Shown one piece after another: positions 19,564 through 23,238 of a stretch of DNA of 64,000 nucleotides. The translations under genes were made by a program, and so were the position numbers. Origin of the DNA: Leucothrix mucor DSM 2157 (GTDB lineage: Bacteria; Pseudomonadota; Gammaproteobacteria; Thiotrichales; Thiotrichaceae); NCBI RefSeq assembly GCF_000419525.1, contig NZ_ATTE01000001.1, positions 124,001-188,000 on the forward strand, in the 5' to 3' direction. Below the pieces are notes generated by a model, which saw only the letters and a program-made list of their open reading frames with translations, was not told the DNA's origin and searched no databases. How positions within the stretch are numbered: the stretch's first letter is position 1; every line of letters starts with the position of its first letter.

Positions 19564-20052
19564 ATGGGGCCTAATAAACAAGAACTCGCGAACACCATCA
19601 GCGCGACTAGCCCAAAGTTCTGTGAAGCACTAACACGTGATGAAATTGAAATATTTGTCGCCTTTACCCGCTATCGGGAAATTGAGGCAGAAGCCATACT
19701 GTGTGAAGTCGGTACGATTAGTGATGAGTTTTTCTTAATCACCAGCGGTGAGATCGTTTTATTTCGGGATGAGATGGGTAAAGAGATTGAAATTGGGCGC
19801 TTAGGGGCCGGAACATTCACTGGGCATATGTCATTTTTTGATCGCGAACCTCGTACTATTCGCTTGCGTGGCTCGGCGAATGGCGCTACTTTGCTGGGCA
19901 TTACCCGCCCGATGTACAAGCGCTTGTGTATTGAGCACCCCTTTGTTGGTGCCAATTTGCTGGAGAGTATCGTCTTGAGTATCGATAGCTTATTGCGATC
20001 AACCAGTCGTGAAGTGTCCACCTTGTATCAAAAACTTAATTCTCCGGACTGA
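19564..20052 (+). CDS. Cyclic nucleotide-binding-domain protein without DNA-binding domain
   Basis: 162 residues. Residues 25-130 match the Crp/cNMP-binding beta-roll (IFVAFTRYREIEAEAILCEVG, FFLITSGEIVLFRD, IGRLGAGTFTGHMSFFDREPRT). The usual R-S/T phosphate-binding cassette is only partly kept (DREPRTIRL). The C-terminus is a short helix, and there is no helix-turn-helix. It is probably a ligand-sensing or dimerising protein rather than a transcription factor. It begins a plus-strand run, divergent from ibaG and 58 bases before the coiled-coil/YbjQ/M48 cluster. Confidence 0.75.
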   Translation: MGPNKQELANTISATSPKFCEALTRDEIEIFVAFTRYREIEAEAILCEVGTISDEFFLITSGEIVLFRDEMGKEIEIGRLGAGTFTGHMSFFDREPRTIRLRGSANGATLLGITRPMYKRLCIEHPFVGANLLESIVLSIDSLLRSTSREVSTLYQKLNSPD

Positions 20053-20110
20053 ACAAAGCGACTCGCTACCGGTCAGATTTTATAGTTCTAATCCCAGTTA
20101 AGGTTTTGAT

Positions 20111-21190
20111 ATGTTAGGCGACTTTTTGTACGGTTTATTGCTGGTGACAACCGTACGGGTCGTATTGGGTATTTTTCGCCTGATGCGCAGCATTCGGCGC
20201 AGTACTGATATCCCATCCGAGCGCTTATTCATCCTTACTTTTGTACTGTTATTCCTGACAGCCATGCTGTTTGTATTTTTTAATGGCTGGATTGGGGAGT
20301 ATCGAGCGCCCGGTGAGCGTTCCAAAAGCAATGAAGAATTATTTGTTGAGCGTATTTATCCGCCATTGGCTACTGCACAGCAACGCCTAGAGCATCAAGT
20401 GGTCCAGCTCAATAAGCTACAAGAGCAAATCGTGAATATGCGCAGCCTGCATCCACAGCAAGCAGGGCGCTTACAGCGTGCCTATAAAGCGTGGCAGCAA
20501 GAGCGACGAGACTTATCGCAGCTTAAAATAAAAATAGATCGCGAAGTGCGTTTAGCCAGAATTCAGCATGAAACTGCTGATAAAGATTACATTACTGATG
20601 AGTTTAATCGTGTGGCGGTTGATTATGAAAAAATCATCAGCGATCGCTTGAGTCTGTATGAAGATAGCCAGCTTAAGGTGAATGCCACCATGCTGGATAA
20701 TGTTCGTTACCAGTTAAAAAATCTCAGTCGCTTACGGCGCGGTAAAAATGCCAGCATGGCCTCCGGCGGCAAAGTAGTGCGCTCTGTGTTTTCGGTGAAG
20801 ACGACCGAAGTACTCAGCGATTACCTGCGAAAAACCGATTCGGCCTTGGCGGATACCTTTGATGGCATTGATCGGCAAATTGTAGTGGCGGCTCAGCGCC
20901 GACGCGAAGTCAGAAACTTTTCACTGGAAAATGTCGACCTGCAACCAACGCTTAATAAAATCATGCAAGATTGGCTACAATTTGAGAATCAGGGTATTTA
21001 TTATCGGGATCAGTTATTGCATGCCATCCAAGCGGAGTATTTAGCGGTGATTATGGGCGTGAATAAGCACGATAATCAGATTGTTCGATTAAATCAGATG
21101 ATTAAAAATAAACTGCCAGAGCTCTATCAGGATCTTAATCAAGCGCGAGCAGGGCTGGAGAAAAGCTACAAAACCTCATCACAACGTTAA
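20111..21190 (+). CDS. Membrane-anchored coiled-coil protein of unknown function
   Basis: 359 residues, family not recognised. Two hydrophobic helices lie near the N-terminus (about 6-20, LYGLLLVTTVRVVLG, and about 41-60, LFILTFVLLFLTAMLFVFF), separated by a basic loop. The rest is charged and helical with heptad-like Gln/Glu/Leu patterns (LEHQVVQLNKLQEQIVNMRSL, WQQERRDLSQLKIKIDREV), predicting a long coiled coil in one compartment. The last codons overlap the first possible start of the next gene (TAATG at 21188). It is the first gene of the four-gene unit with two YbjQ proteins and an M48 protease. Confidence 0.65.
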   Translation: MLGDFLYGLLLVTTVRVVLGIFRLMRSIRRSTDIPSERLFILTFVLLFLTAMLFVFFNGWIGEYRAPGERSKSNEELFVERIYPPLATAQQRLEHQVVQLNKLQEQIVNMRSLHPQQAGRLQRAYKAWQQERRDLSQLKIKIDREVRLARIQHETADKDYITDEFNRVAVDYEKIISDRLSLYEDSQLKVNATMLDNVRYQLKNLSRLRRGKNASMASGGKVVRSVFSVKTTEVLSDYLRKTDSALADTFDGIDRQIVVAAQRRREVRNFSLENVDLQPTLNKIMQDWLQFENQGIYYRDQLLHAIQAEYLAVIMGVNKHDNQIVRLNQMIKNKLPELYQDLNQARAGLEKSYKTSSQR

Positions 21191-21216
21191 TGGCCAAGCG
21201 GCCGGGAAGTGAGTTC

Positions 21217-21531
21217 ATGTTGATATCTAATCTAGAAGTGATTCCGGATCGTCGGGTGGTTAAACATCTGGGGCTGGTGCAGGGGAGCTCGGTGCGTGCT
21301 AAGCATGTGGGGCGCGATATTATGGCCAGCATTAAAAACCTGTTTGGTGGTGAGCTGGTTGGCTATACCGAATTACTGTCTGAATCGCGTGAAGAGGCAA
21401 TGGAGCGTTTAACGGCCCAAGCGACTGCGGTGGGTGCGAATGCAGTGTTGAATGTACGCTTTTCGACCTCAAGCGTGGCACAAGGTGCCGCAGAAATCTA
21501 CGTCTACGGGACGGCTGTCATTCTGGAGTAA
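21217..21531 (+). CDS. YbjQ/UPF0145 family protein
   Basis: 104 residues, nearly all covered by the YbjQ fold: GLVQGSSVRAKHVGRDIMASIKN, GGELVGYTELLSESREEAMERL and ATAVGANAVLNVRFSTS ending in YVYGTAVIL. The function of the family is unsettled; some members are annotated as heavy-metal-binding. A start at 21190 overlaps the previous stop. The ATG at 21217 has GGAAG about 8 bases upstream and matches the family N-terminus better. It is a paralogue of the next gene. Confidence 0.8.
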   Translation: MLISNLEVIPDRRVVKHLGLVQGSSVRAKHVGRDIMASIKNLFGGELVGYTELLSESREEAMERLTAQATAVGANAVLNVRFSTSSVAQGAAEIYVYGTAVILE

Positions 21532-21536
21532 GCGCC

Positions 21537-22004
21537 ATGATTTTTCAGATTATTATTTTTCTGGTACTCATGGTCGCAGGCTATTTAATTGGTAGCTACC
21601 TTGAGCGGCGGCATTATCGTTCGATTATCCAGCGAGAAGCGCAGTATCGAAATGTGGTTGCGGTGGCGAGTCGTCAATTGCCGGATGATGGCGCGGAGTA
21701 TACGCAACGCTTGGTGACGGGCAATGTCACCGTATCGGTAGATTATTTCAAACGATTCTTGGCAACCCTGCATAATATTTTTGGCGGTCGTATTACTTCT
21801 TATGAGAGTTTGTTGGATCGGGCTCGACGTGAAGCTATTCTAAGAATGAAAGCTGAAGCGGCGGCGCTGAAGTCTCCTTTAGTACTCAATGTGAAGTATG
21901 AAACAGCTTCTATTTATAAAGGTAGCGGCAATGGAATTGGCTCGGTTGAGGTGTTGGCTTATGGCACTGCAATGATTCCGAAGGCTAGTAACCATGGAGT
22001 ATGA
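21537..22004 (+). CDS. YbjQ-like protein with N-terminal membrane anchor
   Basis: 155 residues. The N-terminal helix (MIFQIIIFLVLMVAGYLIGSYL) anchors it. From about residue 58 it resembles the preceding gene's product: LVTGNVTVSVDYFKRFLATLHNIFGGRITSYESLLDRARREAILRM, then LVLNVKYETAS and VEVLAYGTAMI. It begins 5 bases after its paralogue and its end overlaps the M48 protease gene by 11 bases, which suggests translational coupling. One soluble and one membrane-bound YbjQ copy side by side could form mixed oligomers. Confidence 0.75.
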   Translation: MIFQIIIFLVLMVAGYLIGSYLERRHYRSIIQREAQYRNVVAVASRQLPDDGAEYTQRLVTGNVTVSVDYFKRFLATLHNIFGGRITSYESLLDRARREAILRMKAEAAALKSPLVLNVKYETASIYKGSGNGIGSVEVLAYGTAMIPKASNHGV

Positions 22005-22827
22005 AAACCCGGAAATTCCAGAGGGAATCAATACCACCTCAACGCATCCGCTGAAAAATCTTGCGGTGCTGTTGGGTGGTTTATTGGTGTTGTTGGTATT
22101 AGGCGCTTGGTTGATGGGAATGACGGGGGCATATCTGGCCGCTAAAATCCCTTATTCACAAGAGTTACGGTTGGCTGAGCAATATGCAGAGCCGGTGGCT
22201 GCGTTTACTCCAATAGAGCGCTATTTGCAGCAATTAGCGGATCAGGTCGGGCGCTCGATGGAGTTACCGTCCGGTATGAAAATTACAGTTCATTATGTCG
22301 ATGAGGGTGTTGATAATGCCTTTGCGACCTTGGGTGGTAATGTGTTTTTATACCGTGGCCTGCTTGAAAAGCTACTCAATGAAAATGCTCTGGCGATGTT
22401 GATTGCTCATGAGGCCGCTCATGTTCTGCACCGTGACCCGATTGTGTCTGTCGGTCAGAACGCAGCAATATCTGTGGGCTTGATGGTGGTGCTCGGTGAT
22501 ACGGGGGCTTCGGGAATATTGGGTAGCGCAGGCTTACTCACACAGCTCCAGTTTAGCCGCAGCATGGAAAACAAGGCCGATGAAGCAGGCTTGCTCGCTG
22601 TGCAGCGCATTTATGGCCACCTTGGTGGTGCTCTGGACTTGTATCGGGTATTGGAATCAATTAGTGATGCTAATCCCGTAAATCCTCCCGCTTTTTTCTC
22701 CACTCATCCGGTTAGCGAGGCGCGATTTAGTCATTTGTCTGAATTAATTGCTGAAAATGGTTGGAGCGCTAATGGTGATGTTCAGGCCTTGCCTGAGTCA
22801 TTTTCTGTATGGATGACAGATAGATAG
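21994..22827 (+). CDS. M48 family membrane metalloprotease
   Basis: 277 residues. One N-terminal transmembrane helix (about 21-44) is followed by a zinc protease domain with the HEAAH motif (residues 139-143) and a downstream ENKADEAG segment giving the third ligand (Glu192). FSTHPVSEARFSHL is the usual C-terminal block. M48 proteases of the HtpX/BepA/LoiP type degrade misfolded membrane or envelope proteins; this one is shorter than BepA and has no TPR repeats. It is last in a unit with a coiled-coil membrane protein and two YbjQ-family proteins, which are candidate partners or substrates. Confidence 0.88.
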   Translation: MEYENPEIPEGINTTSTHPLKNLAVLLGGLLVLLVLGAWLMGMTGAYLAAKIPYSQELRLAEQYAEPVAAFTPIERYLQQLADQVGRSMELPSGMKITVHYVDEGVDNAFATLGGNVFLYRGLLEKLLNENALAMLIAHEAAHVLHRDPIVSVGQNAAISVGLMVVLGDTGASGILGSAGLLTQLQFSRSMENKADEAGLLAVQRIYGHLGGALDLYRVLESISDANPVNPPAFFSTHPVSEARFSHLSELIAENGWSANGDVQALPESFSVWMTDR

Positions 22828-22990: not shown

Positions 22991-23238
22991 TATAATAAAA
23001 AATACTAAATAACGAGAATGAACTAATGATTAGCGCTTCCCCCTAGCGTATTTAACCCGTATTCAATTGATGAACTTAATTTCTACACACTAGCAAAATG
23101 GCACTGTGAGAACCATTGTTTGTCGATAAGCTGTTTTTTTGTTGTTAGCCCCGAGAGCTCACAGAGCTCATTTCACATCAAGGTGCCCCCCTTGATGTGA
23201 GACCTTGAGCCAGACCCATTTTAGGTCTGGCTTTTTTT
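22991..23238 (+). ncRNA. Candidate small RNA with C-rich loops in a 523-bp gene-free region
   Basis: No gene is visible between 22828 and 23350. A TATAAT stands at 22991-22996, though with no convincing -35 box. Downstream lie a small hairpin with loop TCCCCCT (stem CGCT/AGCG, 23034-23048), a perfect 11-bp hairpin with loop TGCCCC (23173-23200), and a strong rho-independent terminator (23208-23238). C-rich loops facing single strands are typical of small RNAs that pair with Shine-Dalgarno sequences. The 5' end and the transcript itself are inferred. The hairpins could instead be the 3' end of the M48 operon transcript. Confidence 0.4.
23208..23238 (+). terminator. Strong rho-independent terminator upstream of rnd
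   Basis: AGCCAGACC (23208-23216) and GGTCTGGCT (23224-23232) form a perfect 9-bp stem followed by seven T, preceded 7 bases upstream by another perfect hairpin (23173-23200). Confidence 0.92.

Follow-up and report, generated by a model that had tools for sequence, protein, structure and literature searches.

A locus in Leucothrix mucor DSM 2157, in which two YbjQ genes precede a metalloprotease gene, raises the question of which of its genes belong together and what YbjQ proteins, members of a widespread family for which we know of no function, might do beside a protease. The stretch of DNA analysed, 64,000 nucleotides in length, is called the window here. All five open reading frames of a preliminary description are present at the positions claimed, all on the forward strand. 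The first, cNMP (19564..20052), encodes a lone cyclic-nucleotide-binding-type domain (PF00027, cNMP_binding, 2e-11) without a DNA-binding domain, and the second, COIL (20111..21190), a fast-evolving membrane protein of 359 aa with two transmembrane helices, helical bundles and no family match. YQ1 (21217..21531) is a soluble YbjQ protein of 104 aa from its conserved start (PF01906, 3.5e-35), YQ2 (21537..22004) is a 155-aa protein in which a YbjQ domain (PF01906, 1.7e-20) is combined with one N-terminal membrane helix (residues 1-19), and the last gene (21994..22827) encodes an M48 metalloprotease of 277 aa (PF01435, Peptidase_M48, 2e-25). With Pfam scores for YbjQ_1 of 121 bits for YQ1 and 74 bits for YQ2 (cut-off 23), no hydrophobic segment in a sequence scan of YQ1, and a transmembrane helix in YQ2 alone, the proposed pair of paralogous YbjQ domains, one soluble and one membrane-anchored, was correctly recognized, as was the singly anchored HEAAH protease, in which HEAAH occupies residues 139-143 and the one anchor is N-terminal.

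The tight coupling proposed for the last four genes holds in part. The frames and their overlap are as described if YQ1, whose frame is also open from 21190, starts there, overlapping the COIL stop codon (TAATG). However, relatives of YQ1 are 75-90% identical and most share the same start Met, the beginning in most being MLISNLE, which corresponds to 21217 in the window. Judged from these alignments, 21217 is probably the true start, not 21190, which leaves a gap of 26 nt between COIL and YQ1 and no overlap. The locus lies in ordinary chromosome: a glutamine-synthetase-like gene (recognized by eye), a CDF-type cation efflux gene and bolA lie upstream on the opposite strand, and an rnd-like nuclease gene with an HRDC domain and aroC (by eye) lie downstream. 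The cNMP gene (19564-20052) is divergent from bolA, and this position is kept in all genomes of the genus that were checked. The most convincing candidate for a terminator, at 23207-23233, follows the M48 gene by about 380 nt, and promoter predictions are uninformative because they number 7 against 6.8 in shuffled sequence. Rfam gave no match to a structured RNA. A role in anti-phage defence was considered and rejected, since PADLOC assigns none of the five proteins to a family.

The extent of the natural unit is indicated by its distribution. When a YQ2 profile was searched class-wide, 49 of 274 genomes matched; 29 of these (that of the window and 28 others) encode a membrane-anchored YQ2, and the rest have ordinary YbjQ only. 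All 28 YQ2 genomes of this class sample that lie outside the family of the window have YQ1 immediately before YQ2 and M48 after it, all on one strand. Among named species, 487 relatives of YQ2 were confirmed, and in the best 80 of these 487, inspected as loci, YQ1 is present in 80, M48 in 77 and COIL in 4. The M48 gene was counted in 74 loci by a strict spacing rule or up to about 660 nt past it, the latter in a lineage with a small intervening gene, and one additional locus that stops at a contig edge was scored as not contradicting its presence. This small gene, encoding 115 aa with a hydrophobic segment, lies between YQ2 and M48 at L092:6460-6807, and the spacing is similar in L157, L175 and L182. 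In three loci (L118, L120 and L151) no M48 gene adjoins the YQ1-YQ2 pair, which may therefore work alone or with a protease encoded elsewhere.

Median gaps within the module are 3 and 5.5 nt, and the outer neighbours belong to about 76 and 80 families on the two flanks. With 28 of 28 genomes and 77 of 80 loci in agreement, conservation of the order is far beyond chance. A reverse search with an M48 profile gave 239-372 bits for the M48 proteins of the module, one divergent module (G259) scoring 125, and at best 151 bits for an M48 protein in genomes that lack the module; M48 proteins of this type occur almost only beside YQ1-YQ2. The hosts include Reinekea, Colwellia, Sedimenticola and Parendozoicomonas, as well as metagenome bins labelled Gallionella, Alphaproteobacteria and Desulfobulbaceae. 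Across the phylum, sampled evenly, the module marker is rare: at the strict cut-off it occurs in 10 of 397 other genomes. In two relatives of the window (G002 and G004) the flanks are kept, all three module genes are gone from the locus, and YQ2 is absent genome-wide. In two loci of the window's genus (L030 and L033), cNMP-COIL is followed directly by the rnd-like gene; there, too, the three module genes are gone and the genome has no YQ2, one of these genomes being only 69% complete. The natural unit is thus a three-gene module, YQ1-YQ2-M48 (21217-22827 in the window), in scattered bacteria, and not the four-gene operon first proposed. No description of it was found in the open-licence literature on YbjQ, UPF0145, DUF74, M48 and LemA.

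The protease of the module is BepA-like, its catalytic residues and plug being intact. H139, E140, H143 and E192, which make up HExxH and the third-ligand Glu, are invariant in 49 sequences, as are H238, P239 and R244 of the HPx4R active-site plug. This motif was defined in the periplasmic protease BepA, in which its His is a fourth zinc ligand and the plug must shift for activity (PMC7950410). The closest solved structures by sequence are 3c37 (4e-40) and BepA (2e-25), and a single-chain model (pLDDT 88.8) was matched by Foldseek to 3c37 (E 1.7e-8) and to BepA chains (1e-7 to 8e-6). The score against the BepA equivalog NF052400 is only 50.7 bits (cut-off 570), the protein stopping after the protease domain without the C-terminal TPR; HtpX equivalogs give 34 bits at most against cut-offs of at least 245, and the score also falls far under the NCBI cut-off for LoiP. 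Ahead of its one membrane helix, at about residues 6-24, the protease carries a conserved N-terminal tail, xNPxxPEGINTSxxHPLKEF, the pLDDT of which (53-75 in the single-chain model) fits a docking peptide but also plain disorder.

Physical association of YQ2 with M48 is indicated by a natural fusion. Of 29 species in a genus of another class, 17 carry the two as a single open frame of 441-459 aa, in which Pfam detects both the YbjQ and the M48 domain; these proteins are 62-100% identical to the query, and one copy is reported with an internal TAG. In the loci read, YQ1 remains a separate gene immediately upstream. On plasmids, no record matches the fused query over 80% of its length, and the hits listed are to the M48 half only. 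The architecture is TM-YbjQ-motif-TM-M48, with membrane helices at 4-22 and 167-185, and the motif LPDxGVNISHRNLL, just ahead of the second helix, is the counterpart of the PEGIN motif. Because a single helix parts YbjQ from M48 in the fusion, the two domains should lie on opposite faces of the membrane. In each of the 81 YQ2 sequences scored, more Lys and Arg follow the transmembrane helix than precede it, which, together with the opposite faces, places the YbjQ domain in the cytosol and the M48 domain in the periplasm. The flanks of the M48 helix itself are weakly biased (more Lys and Arg before than after in 46 sequences, the reverse in 23), so that the case for a periplasmic protease comes mainly from the fusion and YQ2. 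At one locus (L111:5732-7060), YQ2 has ahead of its membrane helix an exported-looking region of about 300 aa that belongs to no family and has, by eye, a signal-like start. This region agrees with a cytosolic YbjQ domain, and the sequence suggests that the module may occur here in a version with a periplasmic sensor.

The partnership of YbjQ and M48 is well supported by these comparisons, and the preliminary description was right to group the YbjQ proteins with the protease, a link that reaches further than it could show, as the near-invariant linkage and the YQ2-M48 fusion attest. Our main reading, to which we assign a probability of about 0.6, is that YQ1, YQ2 and M48 form one inner-membrane protease complex, in which a cytosolic YbjQ ring on the PEGIN tail would control or cluster a periplasmic BepA-like protease. 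YQ1 and the cytosolic domain of YQ2 would form the ring, by analogy with solved YbjQ structures (1VR4, 2GTC and 1Y2I), which have five chains per entry, and the membrane helix of YQ2 would tether it to the inner membrane. The ring may then bind the cytosolic N-terminal PEGIN tails of several M48 proteases, clustering them and relaying a signal or load from the cytosol to the catalytic domain in the periplasm. Until engaged, this domain would be kept inactive by the HPx4R plug, in the manner of BepA; it would then degrade damaged or misassembled envelope proteins. We infer the stoichiometry of the ring, the docking of the tail, the direction of control and the substrates. The earlier idea of a platform that presents substrates to the protease or restrains it is possible in its general sense, but direct contact between ring and active site is barred if the predicted topology is right, because the YbjQ domains would be cytosolic and the catalytic part periplasmic. 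Only tentatively do we suggest a new class of transmembrane-coupled protease, in which a heteromeric cytosolic YbjQ ring senses the state of the cytosol and both assembles and switches a set of periplasmic M48 proteases through their PEGIN tails and membrane helices.

A larger complex of four or five genes, with COIL as an essential part and cNMP as its sensor, was also considered, since the order COIL-YQ1-YQ2-M48 is kept in four genomes of the window's genus (preceded by cNMP in these four) and in related genera, and the gaps from COIL to M48 in the window are very short. However, COIL, matched in 26 of the 57 genomes searched, every one in the family of the window, adjoins the module in only 10 of these 26. 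The two lie apart in the same genome in at least five cases (G010, G016, G021, G032 and G029), COIL occurs without the module in four genomes (G002, G034, G031 and G008), and nearly everywhere else the module is without it, COIL being present in only 4 of 80 module loci. Within the genus, moreover, COIL is only 42-54% identical, against 85-90% for YQ1. On this distribution, COIL as a core subunit was rejected. When co-occurrence across genomes was counted, the result came close to the outcome named beforehand as speaking against a core role, COIL mostly alone or the gene order lost. Nor is the sensor role given to cNMP supported, the gene lying beside the module only in the window's genus and being absent next to it elsewhere. 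As a general rule, the reading with COIL as essential is largely refuted; it is unlikely overall, and COIL is probably a lineage-specific neighbour. COIL is indeed a large helical membrane protein with N-terminal helices, but antiparallel helical bundles are predicted and the coiled coil is not demonstrated: in its model (pLDDT 87.9), two membrane helices are joined by helical hairpins in two sets. Pfam and NCBIfam gave no match over cut-off, no solved relative was found by sequence, and the best Z in a fold search, 9.9, is in the range of generic helical bundles; COIL may still belong to LemA or another known family, but neither a profile match nor a clear fold match was obtained. Just upstream of COIL, other genera of the family encode a secreted-looking protein of 270-300 aa that Pfam does not confidently place in any family (L034:4059-4943, L120:1503-2321 and L047:2942-3778).

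The remaining alternatives retain the three genes and differ in what they do. An orientation opposite to that of the main reading, with the M48 domain in the cytosol beside the YbjQ ring as in HtpX-type membrane quality control, would fit the indecisive charges flanking the M48 helix; it is improbable given the single helix that parts the domains in the fusion, the positive-inside bias of every YQ2 scored, and relatives in sequence and fold that are of the BepA type, BepA being periplasmic (PMC7950410). That YbjQ binds metal, delivering zinc to the protease or sensing metal stress, is suggested by the family name 'putative heavy-metal-binding', by the zinc chemistry of M48 enzymes and by conserved His residues, of which there are two in YQ1 (94 and 96%) and one, invariant, in YQ2. 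Conserved Cys is absent from both proteins, however (15% at most in any column), the invariant His of YQ2 apparently adjoins the membrane helix, and YbjQ would lie across the membrane from the zinc site of the protease, all of which makes a metal-handling role quite doubtful. Least probable, and indeed very unlikely, is that the genes are merely transcribed together in a shared stress response and that their products make no contact. The three loci that lack M48 would suit such an arrangement, but near-perfect linkage across diverse flanks and a fusion conserved in 17 species argue against it.

The complex favoured here may be compared with known membrane proteases. Like the scaffolded membrane protease FtsH-HflKC, that of the module belongs to the inner membrane and probably has an oligomeric partner as its scaffold; the comparison implies no kinship in sequence between YbjQ and HflK or HflC. 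HtpX is also an inner-membrane M48 protease, but that of the module is closer to BepA, and the module differs from both HtpX and FtsH-HflKC in that its catalytic and scaffold domains are predicted on opposite faces of the membrane. Gene neighbourhoods of LemA and M48 likewise place a helical membrane protein near an M48 gene; here, in contrast, COIL has no match to LemA in Pfam or NCBIfam and lies outside the conserved unit. BepA, YcaL and LoiP, of the E. coli periplasm or outer membrane, and 3C37 of Geobacter share with the module protease the M48 fold, HExxH, the third-ligand Glu and HPx4R. They differ from it in that the module protease has an N-terminal transmembrane helix with a cytosolic PEGIN tail, lacks the TPR, and is nearly always encoded beside two YbjQ genes. 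The YbjQ domain is common to the module and the YbjQ/UPF0145 structures (1VR4, 2GTC and 1Y2I), over the full length in the case of YQ1, whereas at the three stand-alone YbjQ loci examined (L112-L114) neither a membrane-anchored paralogue nor a protease is adjacent.

A nearly inseparable and partly fused partnership with M48 gives one large branch of the YbjQ family a concrete, testable function: a protease is probably held or controlled by these YbjQ proteins from the other side of the inner membrane. It further points to control of some M48 proteases from the cytosol. If the tentative reading in which a YbjQ ring switches the protease is true, the YbjQ family would have a function for the first time, and envelope proteolysis a route of control that runs from the inside to the outside.
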